Assembly (NCBI GenBank): GCA_030425705.1
Contig: JAUHZU010000003.1
Span: 1-64,000, forward strand
DNA length: 64,000 nt
Direction: 5' to 3'
Origin: Phycisphaerae bacterium
Lineage (GTDB): Bacteria; Planctomycetota; Phycisphaerae; Phycisphaerales; Phycisphaeraceae
The translations under genes and the position numbers were made by a program. Position 1 is the first letter of the stretch. Each line of letters starts with the position of its first letter. The notes under the pieces were generated by a model, which was given only the letters and a program-made list of their open reading frames with translations, had not been told where the DNA came from and did not search any database. Of this stretch, positions 2,890 through 24,263 are shown one piece after another.

Positions 2890-3109
2890 GCCGACACCCT
2901 GATACAAAATCGCAGACCGATAAGCGGCAAGGCGAGCGGCGGCTTGGCGGGGGCGATTCGCCGAGAATATGCGTTCCTCCCTCCGATCCGGCCGGGAATG
3001 CCGCGGGCGGGTCGGTTTGGGTTTCCCCAGCCCCCGCGCCGGATTTGCGTTGCGGGCCGATCAGGGAGAAAATAGATGTTTCGCCAATGCCATTGCACAG
3101 GGGCACCGG

Positions 3110-3682
3110 ATGCCTGACCTAAGCTCGCCCGACAACCGACCCGCCGTCCCGGCACCCCCGACCGTGCCGATCGGCGTGCAGCCGTTGTCGGTGCTGTTGG
3201 CTCAGCTTTCGGAGCTGATCGCCCAACTCGAGCCCGAGCAGTACAACGCCAAGCCCGACAGCACCCGCTGCGGCGCGATCGGCGGCCACGTCCGCCACAC
3301 CCTCGACCACGTCATCGCCTGGCTGCACGGCGTCAACGGCGAGTCGATCAACTACGACGACCGCCAGCGCGGCACCGACGTCGAGACCAACCCCCGCACC
3401 GCCGAGCAGGTCATCGCCAGGTGCCTGACCCAGCTCGAAGCCGTGCCCGTCGAGGTCCTGCCCCAGACCGTCGCGGTCTTCACGTCGATGACCAGCGACG
3501 GCGCCCTGGTCCGCCTGCCCTCGACGCACGCGCGCGAGCTGGCGTTTGTCTTCAGCCACACGATCCACCACAACGCGATCATCGGGACGATTGCCCGGGC
3601 GCTCAGCGTCGAGCTGCCCGAGCAGTTCGGCATGGCGCCCTCGACCATCGCCTACCGGGACCGTGACGGATGTGCACAGTAA
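3110..3682 (+). CDS. DinB family protein (putative metal-dependent hydrolase)
   Basis: The 190-residue product has the DinB/YfiT four-helix layout with the histidine triad expected for metal binding: His60 and His63 in the HVRHTLDH segment and His150/His153/His154 in FSHTIHHN. DinB-like proteins bind a divalent metal; many are thiol transferases and others have no assigned reaction. I chose the ATG at 3110 because the conserved first helix follows soon after, although the frame is open from 2969. The stop overlaps the start of the NRDE gene by 13 bases, so the two are translationally coupled. Confidence 0.75.
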   Translation: MPDLSSPDNRPAVPAPPTVPIGVQPLSVLLAQLSELIAQLEPEQYNAKPDSTRCGAIGGHVRHTLDHVIAWLHGVNGESINYDDRQRGTDVETNPRTAEQVIARCLTQLEAVPVEVLPQTVAVFTSMTSDGALVRLPSTHARELAFVFSHTIHHNAIIGTIARALSVELPEQFGMAPSTIAYRDRDGCAQ

Positions 3683-4410
3683 CGATCGTCCCCACGCCCC
3701 GGCCCGGGCAGTGGCGCATGGCGTGCAGCCGGGACGAGCGACACGGCCGGGCCCCGGCCCGGCCCCCCGAACCACGGATCGGCCCCGGCGGACGCGCCTA
3801 CCTCATGCCCGTCGACCCCGTCTCCGACGGCACCTGGGTCGCGGTTAATGACGCTGGCCTCGCGCTCACCCTGCTCAACTACAACCCCAAGCAGCCGCCG
3901 ACCGACCGGACCGTCAGCCGGGGCGGGGTGGTCACGGCCTTGGCGGGCTGCGCGACGCTTGAGGACGCGGTCGCCGCCTGCGCAGCCATCCCCGCCGGCG
4001 ACATGATGCCGTTCCGACTGGTCCTCTGCGACGGCCAACGCTTCGCCGTCTGGCGCAGCGACGAACCCGCCGAGTCGATCCCCATCCAGCCGCTGGATCG
4101 GCCGGTGATGTTTACCTCCTCGGGCCTGGGCGATCACCTCGTCGAGCCCCCGCGACGCGAGCTGTTCGATGGCTGGTTCAGCGAGGAGTCCGAGCCCTGG
4201 GTGCAGCAGCAGGACGCCTTCCACGCCCACCGCTGGGACGACCGCCCACACCTGAGCGTTGCGATGTCCCGTGAAGACGCCCGCACCGTTAGCTACACGA
4301 CGCTCGACATCGGGCCCGACGCGATCACGATGCGCTACCACCCCGATCGGCCGGACCTCCCCGCCCACCCGAGCGTCGCGACCCTCGAACGCACGGCCGT
4401 GACCCCGTGA
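3670..4410 (+). CDS. NRDE family protein (TANGO2-like)
   Basis: The protein starts Met-Cys-Thr, and Cys2 is the hallmark of the NRDE/TANGO2 family, which has an N-terminal nucleophile-hydrolase-like fold. The family motif NRDE appears here as SRDE at residues 20-23. GTWVAVNDAGLALTLLNYN near residue 55 is the second conserved block. At 246 residues it is full length. TANGO2-like proteins have been linked to heme and lipid handling in eukaryotes; the bacterial role is not settled. It overlaps the DinB gene at its start and the fusion gene at its end by 4 bases (ATGA type), so the three form one operon. Confidence 0.8.
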   Translation: MCTVTIVPTPRPGQWRMACSRDERHGRAPARPPEPRIGPGGRAYLMPVDPVSDGTWVAVNDAGLALTLLNYNPKQPPTDRTVSRGGVVTALAGCATLEDAVAACAAIPAGDMMPFRLVLCDGQRFAVWRSDEPAESIPIQPLDRPVMFTSSGLGDHLVEPPRRELFDGWFSEESEPWVQQQDAFHAHRWDDRPHLSVAMSREDARTVSYTTLDIGPDAITMRYHPDRPDLPAHPSVATLERTAVTP

Positions 4411-7205
4411 CGGCCGAAGACCCACCCGCGACCGAGCCGGAGGACAACGCGGTACCCCCAAAGGATCCGCCGTGCCGGCCGTGCCGCCGGCTGCGGTGGT
4501 GGCACCTCTACCTGCCGCTGATGCTCGCGTCGTTCACCGTGCAGGTCTTTACCGACGGCCCCGACCCTGTGCCGGCCGGCTATCACACGCAGATGCTCCC
4601 GCCCCAGGACACCGCCGGGGCGATCGAGCAGGCCGAGATGCCGACCCCGCGCGGCACCGTGAAACGCCCGCCCGATGTCGCGCTCGCCTACCAGTTGTTC
4701 GGGCCAACCGACGGCCCGGCCGTCGTTCTGCTCCACGGCAGCCCCGGCGACGGCAGCAACTTCACCACACCCGTCGAGGACCACGACGGCCACGAACACC
4801 CGCCCCTCGCCCGACGCCTCGCCGACGCGGGCTACTACGTCGTCGTCCCCGACCTGCCCGGCTTCGGCTACTCCGAGCCCTACATCCCCGACTACTCCAA
4901 CATCAGCCACGCCCGCTACCTGCTCGCGCTGATGGACACGTTCGGCATCGAGCACGCCCACCTCGTCGGCTTCTCCATGGGCGGCGGCGTCGCCCTCCAC
5001 GCCTACGACCTCGCACCGCAACGCGTCGACAGCATCACGTTCCTTGCCGCGATCGGGGCGCAGGAAGTCGAAGGAAGTGGTGACTACTATTTTGAGCACC
5101 TCAAGTACGGGCTCGGTTATGCCGCTCAGGTCGCCGTTCCTGAGTTTATCCCGCACTTTGGTGTTCTCGGCGACCGCTCCGAACGCAACGGTTTCATGCG
5201 TAACTTTTGGGACACCGACCAGCGCCCCAACCGTGCGATCCTCGAACGTTTCGATAAGCCACTGCTCATCATCCACGCCGAAGCCGACCCGCTCGTCCCG
5301 GCTCGCGCCGCATATCTGCACCACGATTTGGTCGAACACAGCCATCTGGTCATGATGGCTGATGACGAGATCGAACGCAGCTTTATCAACATCCTCCAGC
5401 ATGCCCTGATCTGGGACCACAACGGGACGACACTTGCTACCGACGCCATTCTTCCCTTCCTTGAAGAACAACAACACACGGGATATCAGCCGACGCGCCG
5501 GACAGACGACCGCGCGGCGGTGACCCCGGTCGATACCCTCCAACTCCCCGGAAATCTTGAGCTCCGCCGGGTCATGAACCCCTGGACGAAGATCGGTGTC
5601 ATCATCATCGGGACGTTCATCCTCGAAGACCCCACGTCCATCGCCGTCGGGCTCTTTATCAAGGCCGGGCAGATCGACCTGTTCCTCGGCGTCTTCGCCG
5701 TGCTCACGGGCATCTTCCTCGGCGACCTGGGGCTGTACATGATCGGCTTCGTCGTCGGCCGACGCGCGCTGCGCTGGAAGCCGGTCGCGCGCTTCGTCCC
5801 GACCCGGCAGGTCGATGCGCTCGGCGCGTGGTTCGACAAGAAGGGGTGGAAGGCCGTCCTCGCCTCCCGCTTCATCCCCGGCACCCGGCTGCCGCTGTAC
5901 GTCGCGGCCGGCGTCACCGGCAACAAGCCCGGGCGGTTTATGCTCTGGACCTTCCTGGCCGTCTGCATCTGGGTCCCCGTCATCCTCTTCAGCGTCATCC
6001 TCCTGGGCAACGCCGCGAAGTCGCCGTTCCAGGCGCTGCTCGACCGCGGCGGGTGGGTCGCCTTCGTCGCGGTGGTGCTGGTCCTGATGTTCGTCATGAA
6101 CACCGCGCTGATGCTGCTCAGCCGGGAGGGCCGACGCAAGCTCGCGATCCGCATCCAGAAGCTCAGCCACCACGAGTTCTGGCCGGCGTGGCTGTTCTAC
6201 GTCCCGCTCGTGCCGTACCTCGTCTACCTGGCGATCCGCTTCCGGTCGACGACCGTCTGGACCCTCGCCGACCCGTGCATGCCCGACGGCGGGGTGGTCG
6301 GCGAGAGCAAGAGCGACATCCTCGCGCAGGTGGACGACCCGGCGATCCTCCCGCACGTCCTGATCCCCGCCGACGAAGACCCCAACGCCCGCATCGCCCG
6401 CGCGAAGCAATTCATGGATCGCACGGAAGAGCGGTTCCGTGCGTTCACCTACCCGGTCATCCTCAAGCCCGACGCCGCCCAGCGTGGGGCCGGCGTCACG
6501 AAGATCGAATGCGAAGCCGGGTTCGCCGACTACTTCGAGCAGAACACCGGCCCCGCCCAGCTCCAGGCCTACCACCCCGGCCCCTGCGAAGCCGGCATCT
6601 TCTACGTCCGCGCGCCCGGCGAGGCCGACGGGTCGATCTTCTCCATCACCGACAAGACCTTCCCCGTCATCACCGGCGACGGCACGTCCGACCTCGAGAC
6701 CCTCATCTGGAAGCACAAACGCTTCCGCTGCCAGCACGACACCTTCCACGTGCGCTTCGCCGACGACCTGCAGCGCGTCCTGGCCAAGAGCGAGACCCTC
6801 CGCCTCGCCGAGGCCGGCAACCACGCCCAGGGCACAAAGTTCACCGACGGCCGAAACCTCATCACCCCGGAGCTTACCGCGCGTGTCGACCAGCTCTGCA
6901 GGAAGATCGACGGCTACCACTTCGGCCGGATCGACGTCCGCTACGCCGACCCGGACGCGTTCATGCGCGGCGAGGGGCTAGCCGTCATCGAGCTCAACGG
7001 CGTGACGTCCGAGTCGACCAACATCTACGACCCGTCCTGGTCGGTCTTCCAAGCCCAGCGCACGCTGCGGCACCAGTGGCGGCTGTGCTTCGAGATCGGC
7101 GCCGCCCACCGCCGGCTCGGCCTGAAGCCCAAGCCCCTCTGGAAACTCCTCCGCGACGTCTTCCGCTACTACCGCGAACGAGAAGTGGCCATGGTGTCGG
7201 ACTAG
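4407..7205 (+). CDS. Fusion: alpha/beta hydrolase, DedA (VTT) membrane domain, ATP-grasp domain
   Basis: The 932-residue protein has three modules. Residues about 30-350: a membrane anchor, then an alpha/beta hydrolase with oxyanion motif HGSPGDG (from 110), nucleophile Ser190 in GFSMGG and Asp294 in HAEADP; I do not see a canonical catalytic His after it. Residues about 390-590: a DedA/SNARE-associated membrane domain starting MNPWTKIG, with the hallmark FxxR-x-IPG as ASRFIPGTRLPLY and several helices. Residues about 620-930: an ATP-grasp domain with Lys687 in ILKPDAAQRGAGV and a metal-binding end VIELNGVTSES. DedA proteins move lipids across membranes, so hydrolysis, membrane transport and ligation of a lipid-like substrate is an attractive but unproven reading. 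The stretch 5080-5480 is less GC-rich than the rest. Confidence 0.8.
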   Translation: MTAEDPPATEPEDNAVPPKDPPCRPCRRLRWWHLYLPLMLASFTVQVFTDGPDPVPAGYHTQMLPPQDTAGAIEQAEMPTPRGTVKRPPDVALAYQLFGPTDGPAVVLLHGSPGDGSNFTTPVEDHDGHEHPPLARRLADAGYYVVVPDLPGFGYSEPYIPDYSNISHARYLLALMDTFGIEHAHLVGFSMGGGVALHAYDLAPQRVDSITFLAAIGAQEVEGSGDYYFEHLKYGLGYAAQVAVPEFIPHFGVLGDRSERNGFMRNFWDTDQRPNRAILERFDKPLLIIHAEADPLVPARAAYLHHDLVEHSHLVMMADDEIERSFINILQHALIWDHNGTTLATDAILPFLEEQQHTGYQPTRRTDDRAAVTPVDTLQLPGNLELRRVMNPWTKIGVIIIGTFILEDPTSIAVGLFIKAGQIDLFLGVFAVLTGIFLGDLGLYMIGFVVGRRALRWKPVARFVPTRQVDALGAWFDKKGWKAVLASRFIPGTRLPLYVAAGVTGNKPGRFMLWTFLAVCIWVPVILFSVILLGNAAKSPFQALLDRGGWVAFVAVVLVLMFVMNTALMLLSREGRRKLAIRIQKLSHHEFWPAWLFYVPLVPYLVYLAIRFRSTTVWTLADPCMPDGGVVGESKSDILAQVDDPAILPHVLIPADEDPNARIARAKQFMDRTEERFRAFTYPVILKPDAAQRGAGVTKIECEAGFADYFEQNTGPAQLQAYHPGPCEAGIFYVRAPGEADGSIFSITDKTFPVITGDGTSDLETLIWKHKRFRCQHDTFHVRFADDLQRVLAKSETLRLAEAGNHAQGTKFTDGRNLITPELTARVDQLCRKIDGYHFGRIDVRYADPDAFMRGEGLAVIELNGVTSESTNIYDPSWSVFQAQRTLRHQWRLCFEIGAAHRRLGLKPKPLWKLLRDVFRYYREREVAMVSD

Positions 7206-7370: not shown

Positions 7371-7931
7371 TTGAGCCCGGACCCTGCCCCCACCCCTGCG
7401 ACCTCAGACCACTCCCCCGGTTCCCCGGAGCAGGTGGCGATGGCGTGGGTGAAGGTCCAGCCGGCCGTCTTCTCGTTCCTGCGCTCCCAAATCACTGGCT
7501 ACCACGACGCGGAAGATGCGCTTCAGCGGGTCGCCGCTGCCGTGATCCAGAAACGCGGGCAGTATGACCCGGCTCAGCCGTTCATCGCCTGGGCCATCGG
7601 CTTTGCGCGTATCGAGGTGATGCGATACAGGGCCACGGCCGGGCGTGACAAGCTCATCTTCTCCGAGAAAGTCGTCGAGCTTGTCGCCGACTCGTACTGC
7701 GCCCAGTCCGACCACCTGCGAGAGATGGGGCAGGCGATGGAGTATTGCATCAAGAAACTGCCGGACCGACAGCGGAAGATCCTGAACCTCCATTACATGC
7801 GTTCCGAGCCCGGTGCCGATATCGCCGAGCAACTGGGGATGACGGCTAACGCGGTCTTCGTGACGCTCCATCGCGTGCGGACCCTGCTCCGCCGATGCAT
7901 CAATGCGCAGATGCAGGAGAGCCAGCGATGA
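7371..7931 (+). CDS. ECF-type RNA polymerase sigma factor
   Basis: This 186-residue protein has a sigma region 2 (about residues 28-95; YHDAEDALQRVAAAVI, then FIAWAIGFARIEVMRYRA) and a sigma region 4 helix-turn-helix (about 125-175; LPDRQRKILNLHYMR, then ADIAEQLGMTANAVFVTLHR). It belongs to the ECF group described in Rhodopirellula and Verrucomicrobium. The start is a TTG at 7371 with GAAGAGGTG upstream. Its stop overlaps the ATG of the FecR/LamG gene, the usual coupling of an ECF sigma with its membrane anti-sigma. Likely targets are the nearby secreted-protein genes. Confidence 0.88.
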   Translation: MSPDPAPTPATSDHSPGSPEQVAMAWVKVQPAVFSFLRSQITGYHDAEDALQRVAAAVIQKRGQYDPAQPFIAWAIGFARIEVMRYRATAGRDKLIFSEKVVELVADSYCAQSDHLREMGQAMEYCIKKLPDRQRKILNLHYMRSEPGADIAEQLGMTANAVFVTLHRVRTLLRRCINAQMQESQR

Positions 7932-9796
7932 GCGATCAACACGGCCCCAAGAAGTTCAGCGAACTGGTCTCCGCCTACCTGCACGGGCAGCTCTCCCCCG
8001 ACGAGGCCGCCCGGCTGGAATCGCTGCTGCGCGACTCCCCTGAACACCGCGACCGCTTCGTGCGCGAGTCCTACATCTATCACCAGGCCGGTGAACTGAT
8101 GCGCGGCGACGCGCGGGCGGACCTGATGGAAGGTGTCACGGCCGACGGCGTCGTCGAGCTGACCGAAGACGACCTGGTCAACGCCGACCCCTCCGACGGA
8201 TCGAACACGATGGCCTTCGTTATCGACCAGGCCCTGTCCGAGCGGCGTAAACACGACCTCGAAGACGCAGCCAACCGCCGGCTCGCCGCGCAGCAGGCCG
8301 AAGACGCCCGCAACCGGCGGTACGAACTGCGGCGTAATGCCGCGCCCGAGCCGTTGAAACGGACCGTGGTGATCCCCAAGTCATTTGTCTGGCTCGGCCT
8401 CGCGGCGGTGCTGGGGCTTATTGCGTGGATCGGTTGGCGCGACACCGCTTCGCAGGAGATTCGCTTGGCAGAGCAGGGTCAGGGCCAGGAACAGAATACA
8501 AAGAAGCCACCAGTTGTTGCGACACTCGCCGATGCGGTCGGAGCGCGATGGTCAGCCGGCCCAAATCTCAACGGTCACCTGCGAGAGGGGCAGCGGGTCT
8601 CACTGTCCGAGGGGTACGCCGAAATTGTCTTTGGGAGCGGAGCAACTGCGGTTATTGAAGCGCCCGCGACGTTCATCCCGACCGGGCCTAACAGCGTGCG
8701 TGTGATCCGTGGCCGGCTGGTCGTATCCGCCCCGCCCTCGGCGGCGGGGTTTGTTGCAGACCTGCCCGACGCGCGGATCGTCGATGTCGGCACCGAGTTT
8801 GGGGTCGAGGCATCCTACAGCCAGCCGAGCTACGTTCAAGTCTTCCGGGGCACCGTCTACGCCACGCGCCGGGGGGGGGGCGTGGTGGAAGACGGTGCCG
8901 AGTCAGCCCCTGCCTCGCTTGTGAAGGGGCAGGCAGTTACGATCGAACCGGGCCACACGCCGCTGGCAGAACTGGTTGAAGATTTCGGGGTACAGACACC
9001 CCGCTTCGCACGGTCGTTGGACAGCGAGGTCTTGGCAGACCTGGCCTATGCAAGGGCCGTGATGGCGGACAAGCCGGTGCTGTATTGGCGCTTTGGTGGT
9101 GCTGATGTGCCCAACGCCCTAAACAGCTTGAAAAACTCCGAGGATCGCTTGCGGCTTTCTGGGGATGTGGCGACCTCATCTGAGGGTGGGCGTGGCTGGC
9201 TGGAGTTCGGCCCACGGCGTGGTGAACGTGCTTACGCGGAACTGGATGGCCCGCTGCCGTACCTTGGTGGGTCTTCGACGTTGACGATCGAGTGCTGGGC
9301 CCGTCCCAACCGTCTCGCAGACAATCCGATCCTAAGCCTCCGCGAGTACGGTGTGGAGCCTAACAATGCCAAATCTGCGCTCCTGCTTGAACTCAACAGC
9401 GGGCGCGAGCCGCAGTACGGCCGTCGTACCGCTCGATTTGTCCACCGCAACCCACCCACCCGGGATGGGTCGGAAGAGGTGGTCGACACCCGCCCCTATC
9501 CGGCAGGGGAATGGGTCCACTTGGTTGCGGTCAAGACCGAAACCCATCGGCACCTGTATGTAAACGGACGGCATGTAGGGTCGGTGGCAGACAGCCGACC
9601 CTTAGCAGATGAACCGCTTGCATTGATCCTCGGCTACCACGCCCATGGCGAAGAGCACTTGGGCGTGCCGCTGCGTCAGTTCGTCGGCGGGCTCGACGAA
9701 CTGGCCATCTACCCCACCGGGCTGACCCCGCAGCAGGTGGCTGACCACTACGCCGCCGGTGCCGTTTGTTTCCAGAGCCAGAGGATACCCAACTGA
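7928..9796 (+). CDS. FecR-domain anti-sigma factor with LamG domain
   Basis: The 622-residue protein has a cytoplasmic N-terminal helical domain (residues 1-55, SELVSAYLHGQLSPDEAARL) typical of planctomycete anti-sigma factors, one membrane helix near residues 154-172, a FecR domain (about 220-340, with DARIVDVGTEFGVEA), and a C-terminal LamG/concanavalin-like domain (about 380-610). The periplasmic part is expected to sense a glycan or surface signal and pass it to the sigma factor encoded just before it. The ATG at 7928 overlaps the sigma stop (ATGA). A run of nine G near 8872-8880 is a potential slippage site. The ending AVCFQSQRIPN is not a sorting signal. Confidence 0.88.
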   Translation: MSDQHGPKKFSELVSAYLHGQLSPDEAARLESLLRDSPEHRDRFVRESYIYHQAGELMRGDARADLMEGVTADGVVELTEDDLVNADPSDGSNTMAFVIDQALSERRKHDLEDAANRRLAAQQAEDARNRRYELRRNAAPEPLKRTVVIPKSFVWLGLAAVLGLIAWIGWRDTASQEIRLAEQGQGQEQNTKKPPVVATLADAVGARWSAGPNLNGHLREGQRVSLSEGYAEIVFGSGATAVIEAPATFIPTGPNSVRVIRGRLVVSAPPSAAGFVADLPDARIVDVGTEFGVEASYSQPSYVQVFRGTVYATRRGGGVVEDGAESAPASLVKGQAVTIEPGHTPLAELVEDFGVQTPRFARSLDSEVLADLAYARAVMADKPVLYWRFGGADVPNALNSLKNSEDRLRLSGDVATSSEGGRGWLEFGPRRGERAYAELDGPLPYLGGSSTLTIECWARPNRLADNPILSLREYGVEPNNAKSALLLELNSGREPQYGRRTARFVHRNPPTRDGSEEVVDTRPYPAGEWVHLVAVKTETHRHLYVNGRHVGSVADSRPLADEPLALILGYHAHGEEHLGVPLRQFVGGLDELAIYPTGLTPQQVADHYAAGAVCFQSQRIPN

Positions 9797-9854
9797 TTGT
9801 CAGGGCACGTGTGTGCCCGTTTTCCCCTTTTCTCCCTACGTAGGAGGTTTCAAG

Positions 9855-10562
9855 ATGAAGAGTCTGACTTGTTTGAGCGGGCTGGCGTTGGCCAGCATTA
9901 CGCTGACGGGTGCCGCTTCGGCGGCGACGTTCAGCGCCACCGTGGGTTCGGACACGTTCACGGTCGTCGAGGCCGACCCGTTCAAGACCGGCGACACGGT
10001 CGGGAATACGGTCGGCGTGGTCAGCCCCGCGACACCGTGGGCCACCCTGGGCACATCGAATGATGACGATCTGTGGCGAGAACGCGAACAGAATGCTTTT
10101 GCAACAGGTTATGAATCGATCGTCGGCGCTACGGACCGCAGCTACGAGATCGCTTCCACCGACCTTGCGGATGCCCCGGAACTTGCCACAACGGTGACCG
10201 GGTTGGCCGCCGGGAACTACGAGGTGTTCGTTGTTTTTGTGACACGCAACGACGGGAATGCATCGAACGGCCGTATCCTGGCGGATCTCAATGGCTCCGC
10301 GACCACGCTCTACGACCACTCGAATGATGATTTCATCCTGGCCGCGGGCACGAGTGTATGGGATACCTCGCTGGCGAGCCTCGGCACCACCGGCGATGGT
10401 GCGACGTCCTTCACGGTGAACGTGGCCGGCTCACCCGATGTCAATGGCGAACTCTTCCGTACGGATTACTACGGCGTCGCCTACCGCCTCGTCCCCGAGC
10501 CCGGCTCGTTGGCACTCTTGGGCCTAGGTGGCCTGATGATCGCTCGGCGTCGCCGCGCATAA
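9855..10562 (+). CDS. PEP-CTERM sorting domain protein
   Basis: A signal peptide (residues 1-23, ending GAASAA) starts this 235-residue exported protein. The C-terminus carries the PEP-CTERM signal [23 protein letters not shown] motif, hydrophobic stretch, Arg-rich tail. Exosortase/archaeosortase-type enzymes are known to process such tails; none is encoded in the window. The body is Thr/Asp/Gly-rich and looks like a beta-sandwich, without a recognised catalytic site. A very strong ribosome binding site (TAGGAGGTT) precedes the ATG at 9855, suggesting high expression. It follows the sigma/anti-sigma pair by 58 bases and is a likely target. Confidence 0.85.
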
Positions 10563-20006: not shown

Positions 20007-20228
20007 ATGGCGGACCTCCTAAACATGCTTCTGGTCCTGGCCGTGGGATACGCCGCGCTGGGTATCGTCGTGGCGGTCCCGATCGCGGCGTTCGGGCTGG
20101 GGCGGATCGACCCGGCCGCGCAGGGCGCCCCCTTCGCGTTCCGGCTGCTGGTATTGCCCGGATTGGTCGGGCTCTGGCCGGTGATGCTTATGAAATGGGT
20201 ACGAGCCGGGAAAGGGGCCAGCCAATGA
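20007..20228 (+). CDS. Small membrane protein of the redox cassette
   Basis: About 73 residues with two hydrophobic helices (LLNMLLVLAVGYAALGIVVA and FRLLVLPGLVGLWPVML) separated by a short loop GLGRIDPAAQG. I do not recognise a family. The start may be 19989 or 20007; the latter has GAGGG just upstream. The stop overlaps the next gene's ATG (ATGA), as do the following genes, so this is the first gene of a coupled four-gene cassette with a Rieske/ferric-reductase protein. It is probably a membrane accessory subunit. Confidence 0.65.
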   Translation: MADLLNMLLVLAVGYAALGIVVAVPIAAFGLGRIDPAAQGAPFAFRLLVLPGLVGLWPVMLMKWVRAGKGASQ

Positions 20229-20413
20229 CGCGGACGCAGCGGAAGGTGCACGTCTTGCTGTGGCTCGTTCTCGGGCCGGTGGTGCTGATCATGTTCTTGC
20301 TCGTGGTGCTGGCCCGGCCGACGGTCCCGGTTCAGGCCGACGGGCTGCCCGGGGTCGAGCCGGATTCGCCGGCGCTGACACCCAACAACGACGCGGGGCG
20401 GCGCGATGAGTAA
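20225..20413 (+). CDS. Tiny single-pass membrane protein of the redox cassette
   Basis: A 62-residue protein: basic N-terminus, one strong membrane helix (VLLWLVLGPVVLIMFLLVVL), then a Pro/Asp-rich tail of about 30 residues expected outside the membrane. ATG overlaps the preceding stop, and its own end overlaps the start of the Rieske gene at 20406 by 8 bases. No family is recognised. The tight coupling suggests fixed stoichiometry with the neighbouring redox protein. Confidence 0.6.
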   Translation: MTRTQRKVHVLLWLVLGPVVLIMFLLVVLARPTVPVQADGLPGVEPDSPALTPNNDAGRRDE

Positions 20414-21482
20414 TCAGTACACCTGGGTCCAGTGGAACCGGCACAAGAAGGCCTACGACCTGATCGCGGTCGGTGGCGTGCTCGCCTACCTCGCGGTGTT
20501 TGTTGGTATCAGTTCAGTGGTGTGGTCCGGCGAACACGCGTTGAGCCCGATGACGCTGCTGATCCGCGCGACGGGGACCTGCGCGATCGTCATGCTGCAC
20601 CTCATCCTGGCGATCGGCCCGCTCGCCCGGCTGTACCCGACGCGGTTCGCGCCACTGCTCTACAACCGCCGGCACCTGGGTGTCACGATGTTCTGCGTCG
20701 CGCTGGCCCACAGCGTCCTGGTCCTCATCTGGTACGGCGGGTTCGGCACGATCAACCCGATCAGTGCCGTGCTCACGCTCAACAGCAACATCACGTCGCT
20801 CAGCGCATTCCCCTTCGAGTTGCCTGGCGTACTGGCGCTGGTGATCCTGTTCTACATGGCCGCGACCAGCCACGACTTCTGGCTCAAGAACCTGTCGCCC
20901 CGCTGGTGGAAAGCGCTGCACATGGGCGTCTACGCGGCCTACGCCCTGCTGCTCATGCACGTGGCGCTGGGCGCACTGCAGAGCGAGCGCAGCCCGGCGT
21001 ACCCGGTCCTGATCGGTGTCGGCGCGGTGGGCCTCCTGCTGCTCCATATCACCGCAGGCCTCTTGGAGACCCGGCGGGACCGTCACATCGACGGCCAACC
21101 CACACACACACCGAGTTGGATTGATGTCGCGGCGGTCGCGGACATCCCCACCGACCGCGCGAAGGTTGTCATCCCACGCAAGGGATGTCCCAAGGTCGCG
21201 GTGTTCCGCTATGGCAACACGCTCTCCGCCGTCGCGAACGTCTGTGCGCACCAGGGCGGGCCGCTCGGCGAGGGCAAGATCATCGACGGCTGCATCACCT
21301 GCCCGTGGCACGGCTACCAGTACCGTCCACACAACGGCCAGTCGCCGCCCCCCTACACCGAGATGATCCCGACGTACGAGTTGCGTATTGACGGCGAGCG
21401 TGTCCTGCTGAACCCAACGCCCAAGCCGCCGGGCACTACCGTTGAACCGGTGACCATTGGAGCGCCGCATGATGATCGATGA
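20406..21482 (+). CDS. Ferric-reductase-like membrane protein fused to a Rieske [2Fe-2S] domain
   Basis: The 358-residue protein has about six membrane helices (residues 15-225) with paired histidines typical of the ferric-reductase/MsrQ heme b fold (LHLILAIGP, RRHLGVTMFCVALAHS, LHMGVYAAYALLLMHVALG). The C-terminal 110 residues are a Rieske domain with ligands Cys280 and His282 in CAHQGG and Cys299 and His302 in CPWHGYQY. Electrons could therefore pass between a membrane heme and an iron-sulfur cluster. The Rieske domain follows the last helix directly. The reaction partner is unknown; the flanking coupled genes probably supply it. Confidence 0.85.
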   Translation: MSNQYTWVQWNRHKKAYDLIAVGGVLAYLAVFVGISSVVWSGEHALSPMTLLIRATGTCAIVMLHLILAIGPLARLYPTRFAPLLYNRRHLGVTMFCVALAHSVLVLIWYGGFGTINPISAVLTLNSNITSLSAFPFELPGVLALVILFYMAATSHDFWLKNLSPRWWKALHMGVYAAYALLLMHVALGALQSERSPAYPVLIGVGAVGLLLLHITAGLLETRRDRHIDGQPTHTPSWIDVAAVADIPTDRAKVVIPRKGCPKVAVFRYGNTLSAVANVCAHQGGPLGEGKIIDGCITCPWHGYQYRPHNGQSPPPYTEMIPTYELRIDGERVLLNPTPKPPGTTVEPVTIGAPHDDR

Positions 21483-22263
21483 CGGAGCGAACACAACGCA
21501 CGATCGTCCTTTCTACGTCGGCTACCTCCCGCTGCCGCCGGCGATCCGACGGTTCCTGCTGCCCTGGCTGATAGCGAACGGCGTGTTGGTCCTCGCGGTT
21601 GCCGCGGTGCTGGCGGGGCAGCAGCGCAGCCCCGGCGACGGGACCTGGGACACATCGCACGCGCTGACCTTGACCGGCGTGCTCGAGGCCGAGCCCTACC
21701 CGATGCTGCGCGTGCCCGACCCTGATGCGCCGGACGGCGTGGCGACGTACCTGCTGGTGCAGCAGAGCAAGGCCGGGGCGCAGCCGATGGTGCAGGGGAT
21801 GGATGGTCAGGTGGTCGATGTGCACGGCTACGTGATCGAGCGCGACGGCCGACGCGTCCTTGAGCTCGACGGTGCGCACCCCCAGCCGGTTAGCCCGCGG
21901 GAGGCGCAGGCGTCCTTCGACCGCGCGTACCTGCCTGAGCCGCAGGACCTGGGCACACACGTGCTGGTCGGCGAGATCGTCGACCCCAAGTGTTACCTCG
22001 GCGCGATGAAGCCCGGCGATGGTAAGCCGCACAAGGTCTGTGCGACGCTGTGCATCCGGGGCGGTATCCCGCCGGTCTTCGTTGTTCGTGATACGGCTGG
22101 CCGTACTGCTGCGTACCTGCTGCTGACCGCCGACGGCAGCGCGCTGCCGGCCTCGCATTTTTCCTATATCGCGGACCCGATCCGCCTCACCGGGCGGATC
22201 GAGCGGCGGGGCGACCTGCTGGTTCTGTTCGCCGATCTCGACCGGTTCGAGCGGCTGGACTAG
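21469..22263 (+). CDS. Membrane-anchored Cys-motif protein of the redox cassette
   Basis: About 264 residues with one N-terminal membrane helix (FLLPWLIANGVLVLAVAAVL) and a beta-rich extracytoplasmic domain. The striking block IVDPKCYLGAMKPGDGKPHK and the following VCATLCIRGGIPP (residues about 178-210) carries three Cys and a His and looks like a metal or heme site. Two halves with similar endings (LTGVLEAEP and LTGRIERRG) suggest an OB-like repeat. The start overlaps the Rieske gene. I know of no characterised member; the context points to an electron acceptor or assembly partner of the Rieske protein. Confidence 0.7.
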   Translation: MMIDDGANTTHDRPFYVGYLPLPPAIRRFLLPWLIANGVLVLAVAAVLAGQQRSPGDGTWDTSHALTLTGVLEAEPYPMLRVPDPDAPDGVATYLLVQQSKAGAQPMVQGMDGQVVDVHGYVIERDGRRVLELDGAHPQPVSPREAQASFDRAYLPEPQDLGTHVLVGEIVDPKCYLGAMKPGDGKPHKVCATLCIRGGIPPVFVVRDTAGRTAAYLLLTADGSALPASHFSYIADPIRLTGRIERRGDLLVLFADLDRFERLD

Positions 22264-22302: not shown

Positions 22303-23703
22303 CTACTCGTCGTTGCCCAGCGGATGAGCGGTCAGCTTCTCGATCACGATAACCGCGAGGTGGTAGTCGCTGACCGCTTCCAGTCGGCGTTCGCGGATGT
22401 CCAGCAACGCGCGTTCGGCGTCGAGCACCGTCAGGTAGTCGCTCAGCCCGGCCGCGTAGGCCTCGACGGCCGCGTCGTAGGCGCGCTGTGACGCGGGGAG
22501 CGCTTCGTTATCCAGCGAGCGGACCGTGTAGTCAGCCGCCAGTGCTTCGGCGTGCGCGCGGGCGAGCAATCGGCCCGCCTCGGCGTAGGCGTGGTCACGC
22601 TGCGCGACGGCCTGCGAGACGTGCAGCCGGGCCGCGAGCACCGCGTCTCGGTTGTCGTCAAAGAGCTGCAGCGGTAGCCCCAGCTCGAACACCGCCGCGG
22701 CGTCGTCCGCATCCGGGAAAAAGCGCACCCCCGCGCCGACGGTCGGGTCCGGCGTGGCGTTCGCCCGCGCGAGGTCCACCACCGCCTCGCGCTGCGCGAT
22801 CTCGTCGTCCCAACGCGCCAAGGCGGGGCTCTGTTCAAGTCGTTCGCGTACGGCATCCAGCGCGGGGAGACCGACACGGGAATCGAGGTCGCCCACCACC
22901 TCGGCGAACACGGCCTGCGTGGAGCCCCAACTCGCGGCGAGGTCGGCACGGTCGGCGCTGAGCCGCTGCCTTGCCTGTTCGAGCGCAATGCCCCGCAGCG
23001 CGACACGGGCCGACGCACGGTCACGCTCCAGCCCCGGGGCGCTGCCGTTGCGCACGCGGTCGTCGGCGATCGCCAGCCCCGCCTCCGCCAGCGCGAGTTG
23101 TTCCTCGGCCAGCACCACGCGCTGCTGCGACACCGCCACCGCGACATACCGGGACGCCGCGGCCGACGCCGTCGCCAGCCGCTGCGCTTCGTAATCCCAG
23201 GCACGCAGACGCTGCGTCGCGTAGCCAAACGATTCCCGACGCGCTCGCTTGCCCGACAGCTCGATGACCTGACTGAGACGAAGCGTGTACCGCTCGAACG
23301 TATCGCCGCTGTCCGGTCCGCCGAGGTTCTCCGCGGCGATGGAGGCACGCGGGTTGGGCGCTCGGCCACGCTGCCGTGCCTCGGCTTCGGACGCGGCGAC
23401 CGCCCACCCGGCCGAGGCGAGCGCGGGGTCGTGCTGCAGCGCCAGCGCGACCGCCTCGCGCAGTGTGACGGAGCCGGTCGGGTTGTCCGCCCGTCCCTCG
23501 GCGGTCGTCTGGCTCGCCGACCCTTCAGCCGGGTGCACCGCGGGCAGCCCGGCGTGGTACGGCCGCGGCGCGACCCAGAGGTCGGCGTACGGCCGGTGCT
23601 GGACACACCCCGTGAGCCCTAGCGCAAGCGCCGCAGACACCAAGAGCGCAGGGTGACAAGAGCGCAGCACTTGCATCGACAAAACCGGCTTGAAACACTC
23701 CAT
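22303..23703 (-). CDS. TolC-family outer membrane efflux lipoprotein
   Basis: The 466-residue protein has a lipoprotein signal ending LGLTGC and the two-fold repeated alpha-helical layout of TolC/OEP proteins: VTLREAVALALQHDPALASA opens the first repeat and a second begins around ALDAVRERLEQSPALARW. It resembles the CusC/CzcC branch. TolC-like trimers form the exit duct of tripartite pumps. It is the last gene of a seven-gene minus-strand operon with an ABC transporter and adaptor; its ATG overlaps the stop of the lipoprotein gene. Confidence 0.85.
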   Translation of the reverse strand: MECFKPVLSMQVLRSCHPALLVSAALALGLTGCVQHRPYADLWVAPRPYHAGLPAVHPAEGSASQTTAEGRADNPTGSVTLREAVALALQHDPALASAGWAVAASEAEARQRGRAPNPRASIAAENLGGPDSGDTFERYTLRLSQVIELSGKRARRESFGYATQRLRAWDYEAQRLATASAAASRYVAVAVSQQRVVLAEEQLALAEAGLAIADDRVRNGSAPGLERDRASARVALRGIALEQARQRLSADRADLAASWGSTQAVFAEVVGDLDSRVGLPALDAVRERLEQSPALARWDDEIAQREAVVDLARANATPDPTVGAGVRFFPDADDAAAVFELGLPLQLFDDNRDAVLAARLHVSQAVAQRDHAYAEAGRLLARAHAEALAADYTVRSLDNEALPASQRAYDAAVEAYAAGLSDYLTVLDAERALLDIRERRLEAVSDYHLAVIVIEKLTAHPLGNDE

Positions 23704-24263
23704 CAGTTCGTGCCTTGTTCGATGTAGATGCCGGTTGCGTTGATCGTCAGGACCTGCGGGTCGGGCCGCGGGCCGACGGTGCCGCGGATCGTGAGCACGG
23801 CCAGGGGCGGGAGCTGTTCGGCGAGGTCGACCGCGAGCGGCCGGCCGTCAGAATCCACGATCTGCAGCGTCGCGAGGTTCGCGGTGATGTCTTCCTGCGG
23901 CGTGCAGCAGTAGTCCCACGGCGTCTGGCAGTGGTCGTCTTCGCTGGTGCACGGGTTGTCGAGCCCGGCGTCGATGATCGCCGCCGACGCGCGGCCGGCA
24001 ACATGCGGCTGCATCTTCCCGCCCACGATGACGTGGACAACGACCTCGTCGCCTTCCTCGGCGGTTTCCTTGAGCGCGGTGATCGGCTGCGCGCCATCCG
24101 GTGCGGTGTCGAGGAACAGCCCGGCGGGCAGGGCCGCGGCGTTGCCCGCGTCGGGGCCGGGGGTGTTGCTGTTGCTGCCGGACTGGCCGCAGCCTGCAAA
24201 AAGCATGACGGTGGCGGTGAGCAGCAGCGGGCACAGCGCGTGTTGGAAGGGGATGCGTGGCAT
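23703..24263 (-). CDS. Periplasmic lipoprotein with a Cys-rich loop, efflux operon
   Basis: The 186-residue protein begins with a lipoprotein signal ending LFAGCG. The mature part is beta-rich; a central segment with CTSEDDHCQTPWDYCCTP holds four cysteines plus a histidine, suggesting metal binding. The pattern GDEVVVHVIVGGKMQPHVAG and the final TIRGTVGP strand look like an OB-type fold. I do not know a characterised family. Its place between ABC permease and TolC genes suggests a periplasmic substrate-binding or chaperone role in the pump. Confidence 0.65.
   Translation of the reverse strand: MPRIPFQHALCPLLLTATVMLFAGCGQSGSNSNTPGPDAGNAAALPAGLFLDTAPDGAQPITALKETAEEGDEVVVHVIVGGKMQPHVAGRASAAIIDAGLDNPCTSEDDHCQTPWDYCCTPQEDITANLATLQIVDSDGRPLAVDLAEQLPPLAVLTIRGTVGPRPDPQVLTINATGIYIEQGTN

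Follow-up and report, generated by a model that had tools for sequence, protein, structure and literature searches.

What function is served by four genes that overlap head to tail at positions 20007–22263 of contig JAUHZU010000003.1 (assembly GCA_030425705.1) from a Phycisphaerae bacterium? We refer to these genes as A, B, C and D, and to the whole stretch of DNA analysed, positions 1 to 64,000 of this contig, as the window. The reading that we prefer, to which we assign a probability of about 0.6, is that A-B-C-D would encode one inner-membrane electron-transfer complex, in which electrons are predicted to pass from a Rieske domain inside the cell to a heme in the membrane, then to protein D outside, and from there to an acceptor. 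All four genes lie on the + strand, with overlaps of 4, 8 and 14 nucleotides (nt). Gene A (20007..20228) starts with the ATG at 20007, stops at 20226–20228 and encodes 73 amino acids (aa) with two hydrophobic segments; gene B (20225..20413) starts with the ATG at 20225, within an ATGA that forms the 4-nt overlap with A, stops at 20411–20413 and encodes 62 aa with one such segment. Gene C (20406..21482; ATG at 20406, stop at 21480–21482) overlaps B by 8 nt and encodes 358 aa, and gene D (21469..22263; ATG at 21469, stop at 22261–22263) overlaps C by 14 nt and encodes 264 aa, with an in-frame TTG at 21457, 5′ of this ATG. The first-pass annotation of this DNA had described head-to-tail coupling, two tiny membrane proteins, a ferric-reductase-like protein with a C-terminal Rieske domain and a membrane-anchored protein with a block of three Cys residues; the coordinates given here and the domain matches given below agree with it on every one of these points, and add to the Cys block of D an equally conserved His188.

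The set is a conserved unit and not a local accident. D is present in 16 members of a first set of 61 genomes, the genome of the window being one of the 16. Among 15 loci fetched from this set, all 14 with a full-length D have C adjoining, C being cut by the contig end in L021 and split over two frames in L030, and L032, whose D-like protein is short and corresponds to the second barrel only, has no C adjoining. Scanning contigs with the D alignment gave 361 confirmed relatives, and the best 80 of these 361 were fetched; they are labelled Planctomycetota (52 loci, the closest being of Phycisphaera type), 'bacterium' (4), or other (24, comprising Alpha- and Gammaproteobacteria, Acidobacteriota, Verrucomicrobia, Kiritimatiellales and one unspecified proteobacterium). 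Single taxon labels may be wrong, because 77 of the 80 loci are metagenome-assembled; the remaining three are from Gemmata sp. IIL30 and Planctomycetes Pla163 and Pla86. C, or an end of C, adjoins D in 78 of the 80, and in the two exceptions, L073 and L110, D starts less than 200 bases from a contig end, the Rieske match listed for L110 being another gene. Moreover, D is present on five Rhizobium plasmids, and three plasmid regions show the order hypothetical, hypothetical, Rieske, hypothetical, with sizes as expected for the set. Thus the set recurs in genomes labelled Planctomycetota, Alpha- and Gammaproteobacteria, Acidobacteriota and Verrucomicrobia, as well as on Rhizobium plasmids, which answers the concern of the first-pass annotation that the genes might be adjacent only here. 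The three Rhizobium regions also share a fifth small gene of ~70 aa that overlaps the end of D (+ strand; 9753–9962 in L117 and 9753–9965 in both L118 and L119), and the one copy scanned had no Pfam match.

Co-occurrence was followed by profile matches for C and D in a sample of 294 genomes of the phylum. D matched in 32 genomes, at full length in 20, and full-length C was found in exactly the same 20; in all of them C and D are on the same contig and strand, and their profile matches are 8–58 nt apart. For independent genomes, the probability of hitting the same 20 of 294 twice would be ~2e-31; genomes are not independent, and the figure serves as a guide only. D matches in the 12 other genomes are short, 10 of them being weak (best E 3.9e-12) and two stronger but partial (G331, ~5e-46; G075, ~5e-43), and C matches in another 168 genomes have a best E no lower than 4.6e-27 and, among the matches listed, cover little beyond the Rieske part. 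Of 95 loci in total, 88 were used for counts of A, B and neighbouring genes, after L019, L020, L021, L024, L025 and L030, taken as the same as other loci, and L032 had been left out. In eight of the 88 the sequence starts at C or within it; in the 80 that could be tested A was matched upstream of C every time (79 at E<1e-3, and doubtfully at 1.0 in L088), as was B (doubtfully in L096, at E 0.2). The spacing is similarly tight: among 78 loci measured, the stop of B and the start of C overlap by exactly 4 nt in 58 and are no more than 10 nt apart in 75, and A and B overlap or lie no more than 10 nt apart in 76/77. The distance from the C stop to the D motif was measurable in 64 loci only.

The product of gene C matches Ferric_reduct (PF01794; E 6.9e-14, 52.4 bits versus a gathering score of 28) and Rieske (PF00355; E 3.2e-13, 49.8 bits versus a cut-off of 20.3), and it scores 49.5 bits with the MsrQ model NF003831 of NCBIfam, below the cut-off of 130. 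The six-helix heme domain of ferric-reductase type spans residues 12–229 (20439..21092), and the C-terminal [2Fe-2S] Rieske domain, of dioxygenase-ferredoxin type, spans residues 237–335 (21114..21410). An AlphaFold2 model built from 26 sequences (predicted local distance difference test score, pLDDT, 87.6) has six long membrane helices followed by a C-terminal beta domain. Residues 9–232 of this model fit STEAP2, STEAP4, STEAP1 and csNOX5 (Z 15.7–17.0, root-mean-square deviation (rmsd) 3.7–4.0 Å, 188–209 residues aligned), the STEAP metalloreductases being the best-ranked solved folds for the membrane part, and residues ~235–345 fit Rieske ferredoxins of aromatic dioxygenases (best rows with Z ~15, rmsd 1.7–2.0 Å and 103–108 residues aligned). 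A search of Protein Data Bank (PDB) sequences with C gave Rieske proteins only (15 sequences). The alignment of C has 83 rows, 17 of which lack most of the protein through trimming, and L088, with a C that is broken into two frames, is not among them; H214 is replaced by Gln once in this alignment. Cleaner figures come from 26 chosen clean rows, in which H214 is invariant.

Aligned with Escherichia coli MsrQ, the membrane-part profile of C gave a best domain score of 26.9 bits and placed R88, H102, H172 and H185 of C, all invariant in the 26 rows, on MsrQ R77, H91, H151 and H164. The surface-proximal heme His residues of ferric reductase domains (FRDs), on transmembrane helices (TM) 3 and 5, correspond to H102 and H185, opposite MsrQ H91 and H164. 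H90, H156 and H214 are further His residues that are invariant in the 26 rows and have no His partner in MsrQ. Replacement of the first canonical His by Arg, with the other three His kept, is described as a mark of the YedZ and STEAP proteins (PMC3591440), and because R88 aligns with MsrQ R77 and the three His align as well, C falls on the YedZ/STEAP side of the superfamily and not with the four-His long forms. The heme domain of C is predicted, by homology to MsrQ, STEAP and NOX proteins, to bind b-type heme. A two-heme arrangement with four His ligands as in NOX was considered for C and rejected, since H90 aligns with L79 of MsrQ and the position of the first canonical His is R88.

The Rieske ligands of C are C280, H282, C299 and H302, and all are invariant in the 26 rows. 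High-potential Rieske proteins of the bc1/b6f type carry an extra disulfide Cys beside the ligand loops (C-T-H-x-G-C). C has instead an invariant G285 where this Cys would be expected, and thus its cluster is likely of the low-potential type. To place the domain relative to the membrane, we counted Lys and Arg residues on flanks that were set by hand around the predicted helices: in 26/26 C proteins the flanks taken as cytoplasmic have more of them than those on the periplasmic side (mean 12.3 versus 1.6). This bias would put both ends of C inside the cell, and the Rieske domain is therefore predicted to be cytoplasmic. Export of the Rieske domain by the Tat pathway was thought unlikely from the six helices and the charge bias, and the dual-targeted families in the available text of PMC5449189 are others than C.

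The small proteins A and B have conserved residues too. All 80 rows of A show G19, W57 and P58, 78 show Y15 and 74 show R46, and B consists of an N-terminal R-x-x-H followed by one transmembrane segment, with His9 in 81/81 rows, Arg6 in 79 and Trp13 in 72. A had no match in Pfam and B had two weak ones below the cut-off, and NCBIfam gave no match for A, B or D, C alone being matched below curated cut-offs. A and B would be constant small subunits of the complex, and His9 of B, at the predicted cytoplasmic surface of the membrane, may complete a heme site.

Protein D is the candidate for the outer end of the path. It has a conserved FYVGYLPLP N-terminus and one transmembrane helix, and its model, built from 15 sequences (pLDDT 86.2), places this anchor at residues 24–51 (21538..21621), followed by strands that fit two OB-like barrels, at residues 66–133 (21664..21867) and 159–262 (21943..22254); the predicted strand order in each half is compatible with a closed five-stranded OB barrel. 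The first barrel is free of a Cys/His cluster, and the second has a helical insert that carries the DPKC-H-C-C cluster (residues 172–202; 21982..22074), with C175, H188, C191 and C195 each present in 87/89 aligned rows. H188, C191 and C195 are on one helix at i, i+3 and i+7, a spacing that would suit a metal site, and the Cys3-His cluster is probably a metal or redox centre. In a fold search with D, OB-fold chains lead (Z ≤7.8), mostly on the first barrel with few rows reaching the second half; the matches, all below Z 8, are general OB folds or small barrels of other kinds (SSB, RPA, telomere proteins, NlpE, superantigen barrels), and no function was read from them. D has one weak match in Pfam, below the cut-off, and no PDB sequence match at E 1. 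An MsrP-like or other partner with molybdenum cofactor (Moco) was rejected for D, because no molybdopterin family matched in Pfam or NCBIfam. Membership of the DPKC protein in a known non-redox family had been named as a point that would tell against the first-pass annotation, and, as D stays below every family cut-off in Pfam and NCBIfam, it belongs to no such family in these collections.

The second barrel of D also has relatives outside the set. In the stretches fetched, single-domain relatives of secreted- or lipoprotein-like appearance occur without C, and the C-x(n)-H-x2-C-x3-C pattern is present in 13 of 16 short relatives, listed besides two full D proteins; those lacking it are two divergent neighbours (L127, L132) and a fragment (L128). 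The divergent copies, at 4505–4930 in L127 and 2918–4390 in L132, have the Cys residues replaced (e.g. LTAYL ... AAEAAIRGGAP) and adjoin single-domain Cys-His relatives of D. In L130 (− strand), a lipoprotein-like second-barrel relative overlaps a stand-alone Rieske-type gene (2985–3389 and 3287–3760), a further case in which this domain is paired with Rieske. In L121 (G075:C35, 3929–4495 and 3976–4383, − strand), an A-like start runs into a D that has the second barrel only, without B, C or the first barrel and directly before a gene of Rieske-glutamate-synthase type; this may be a cassette remnant. The second domain of D is a conserved Cys-His cluster family, and the members that were scanned stayed below all cut-offs of Pfam and NCBIfam.

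Natural fusions connect C and D. C and D form one open frame in L029 and L091, and their matches in G231 show the same frame length; such fusions argue for a physical complex, and they fit the predicted topology, in which C ends inside, D starts before its helix, and the end of C is on the same side as the start of D. Among genes within the fetched flanks, Rieske-glutamate-synthase-type genes are found in 12/88 loci and genes joining Rieske to a thiamine pyrophosphate (TPP) enzyme in 9/88, and a Rieske-flavin mononucleotide (FMN)-reductase gene lies 49–277 nt after D in three loci. The TPP part of two scanned Rieske-TPP enzymes was nearest to a pyruvate oxidase model, below its cut-off. Rieske stands at the N-terminus of these pyruvate-oxidase-like enzymes (2644–4731 in L081, 3858–5834 in L067 and others) and likewise of the glutamate-synthase-type FMN proteins (4838–6463 in L105 and others), and genes of the two kinds often lie next to one another and near the cassette. 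The Rhizobium set is flanked by a TPP enzyme, a CoA transferase, OpgC and a short-chain dehydrogenase/reductase (SDR). These Rieske-TPP and Rieske-FMN neighbours are not constant and offer a hint of what the electron donors might be.

From these observations we infer the following path. A soluble donor, in some genomes possibly one of the Rieske-TPP or Rieske-FMN enzymes encoded nearby, would reduce the dioxygenase-type [2Fe-2S] cluster that C carries in its C-terminal domain on the cytoplasmic side; the electron would then move to b-type heme in the six-helix domain and across the membrane to D, a predicted membrane-anchored periplasmic protein with its Cys3-His cluster on the second barrel, and D would reduce, or pass electrons to, a periplasmic acceptor. 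That the path crosses the membrane is implied by the homology of C, by its invariant His and Rieske ligands and by the predicted topology, and these, together with the C-D fusions, lend support to the proposal of the first-pass annotation that the coupled genes form a complex moving electrons across the membrane. By analogy the set would probably work as MsrPQ or NOX does, with the Rieske domain replacing the flavin domain and D replacing MsrP. A more specific version, in which His9 of B is the axial heme ligand lost at Arg88, D carries, on an OB-like barrel, a new type of Cys3-His metal centre that small single-domain proteins use as well, and Rieske-tailed TPP or FMN enzymes feed the conduit in some bacteria, is possible and we hold it only tentatively.

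Several points weigh against this path. The first canonical heme His of NOX-type proteins is Arg88 in C, and so a second heme is uncertain. Because the B profile had its seed in the window and only the top match at each locus was kept, the weakest B rows may be biased towards His. Neither Pfam, NCBIfam nor PDB sequences allowed a Moco, flavin, c-heme or known metal-binding family to be recognised in D, and hence it is conservation and context that speak for its redox role. The positive-inside signal of D is also weak, Lys and Arg before the helix exceeding those after it in 11/15 proteins. Finally, nearby Rieske enzymes are found in a minority of loci only, and the donor is therefore not fixed. 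The most serious competing explanation is that C reduces periplasmic Fe(III) or Cu(II) as STEAP and FRE proteins do, and that the Cys-His cluster of D binds or presents the metal ion and takes no part as a fixed relay. The rank of the STEAP metalloreductases in the fold search speaks for it, Cu or Fe might be bound at the C-x(n)-H-x2-C-x3-C pattern, the short second-barrel relatives stand without C in the stretches fetched, and CopD-family genes are near the set in two of the three Rhizobium plasmid regions. However, no iron or copper transporter is among the ten annotated recurrent neighbours, most neighbour clusters having been left unannotated, and we regard metal reduction as rather unlikely.

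The direction of flow can be questioned too, since sequence itself fixes none: D might oxidise a periplasmic substrate and electrons might run inward through the heme to the Rieske domain, feeding a cytoplasmic oxygenase or other reductive enzyme. The Rieske domain of C is of the type that serves ring-hydroxylating oxygenases, as such a scheme would have it, yet no Rieske oxygenase alpha subunit was seen among the same ten neighbours, and FRE and NOX enzymes are described as moving electrons outward from cytosolic NADPH (PMC3591440); inward flow is thus improbable in our estimate. It is harder still to defend a set without any through-going path that handles heme or metal for another protein or senses the redox state. 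The two predicted OB-like barrels of D could be read in this way, as the OB fold also occurs in binding proteins and chaperones, and so could the TANGO2-family and DinB genes in 26/88 and 28/88 loci, mostly downstream. But the invariance of the Rieske ligands and of three MsrQ-type heme His residues in 26 C proteins is hard to explain without electron transfer, and DinB and TANGO2 are nearly confined to Planctomycetota loci (the exceptions are L101, labelled Proteobacteria, with DinB, and L103, labelled 'bacterium', with both) and look like a separate block; we give such a role very little credence.

This block, of the form DinB-TANGO2-VTT domain (VTT genes in 27/88 loci, mostly downstream of D like the other two), is recurrent in mostly Planctomycetota loci, e.g. 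at 7802–11855 in L033. DinB, TANGO2, VTT, acyltransferase-GNAT, DoxX and AhpC/TSA-YHS neighbours were all considered as members of the set and rejected, being recurrent but not constant. In the window itself, the promoter scan found no promoter-like site, two terminator-like sites lie inside gene D, and the tRNA and Rfam scans found none of either. A lipoprotein-like gene at 23703–24263 (− strand) has a Cys/His-rich stretch, CTSEDDHCQTPWDYCC, and adjoins MacB/FtsX permease and OEP efflux genes; Pfam gave no match above the cut-off for it.

How far is such a set already known? The first-pass annotation knew of no characterised system of this kind, and this stands in part. The open-access literature searched yielded no paper on D or on the set of four genes, and the set appears undescribed; the FRD-Rieske combination, by contrast, has been in print since 2013, when Zhang et al. 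listed it as model M4 (PMC3591440, Figure 3 legend). M4 has FRD and Rieske as C does, and in that legend it is a catalogue entry without function or gene context, which also names an FMN domain, and C may or may not belong to M4. At the time of that survey, YedZ was the one bacterial member of the superfamily that its authors knew to be characterised. In the present set one FRD class has three constant partners, with Rieske as a point at which electron entry can be recognised and D as a candidate exit, and because the set is spread from Planctomycetota to Rhizobium, the question of its function can be asked in cultured organisms.

Among known systems, MsrPQ (YedYZ) of E. coli is alike in that a six-helix heme membrane protein is encoded beside a periplasmic partner, and the heme domains of MsrQ and C align, including MsrQ R77, H91, H151 and H164. 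Unlike MsrQ, C has a Rieske domain, the extra invariant H90, H156 and H214 and two small partner proteins, and unlike MsrP, D is membrane-anchored and has no molybdopterin domain (the search for MsrP did not extend to the rest of the genome). The MsrQ-like flavinylated systems described in PMC8238504 likewise have, within one gene cluster, a membrane protein resembling MsrQ and an electron carrier outside the cytosol, but are described there as using FMN-binding proteins flavinylated by ApbE, whereas Pfam found no FMN-binding domain in D. STEAP proteins are the best-ranked structural match of the membrane domain (Z 16–17) and have the same Arg-for-His signature (PMC3591440); STEAP2–4 carry an N-terminal NADP oxidoreductase domain of F420-dependent type according to that survey, whereas C has a C-terminal Rieske domain and three partner proteins. 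The long forms of NOX and FRE resemble C in that a six-helix heme domain, similar in predicted fold, is followed on its C-terminal side by a redox domain in the cytoplasm, but in C a Rieske domain follows TM6, Pfam gives no FAD/NADPH domain match, the first canonical His is Arg, and D is a constant partner. Compared with all of these, a Rieske-driven, NOX-like set would, if the more specific version of our reading is true, be a new and widespread kind of transmembrane electron conduit.

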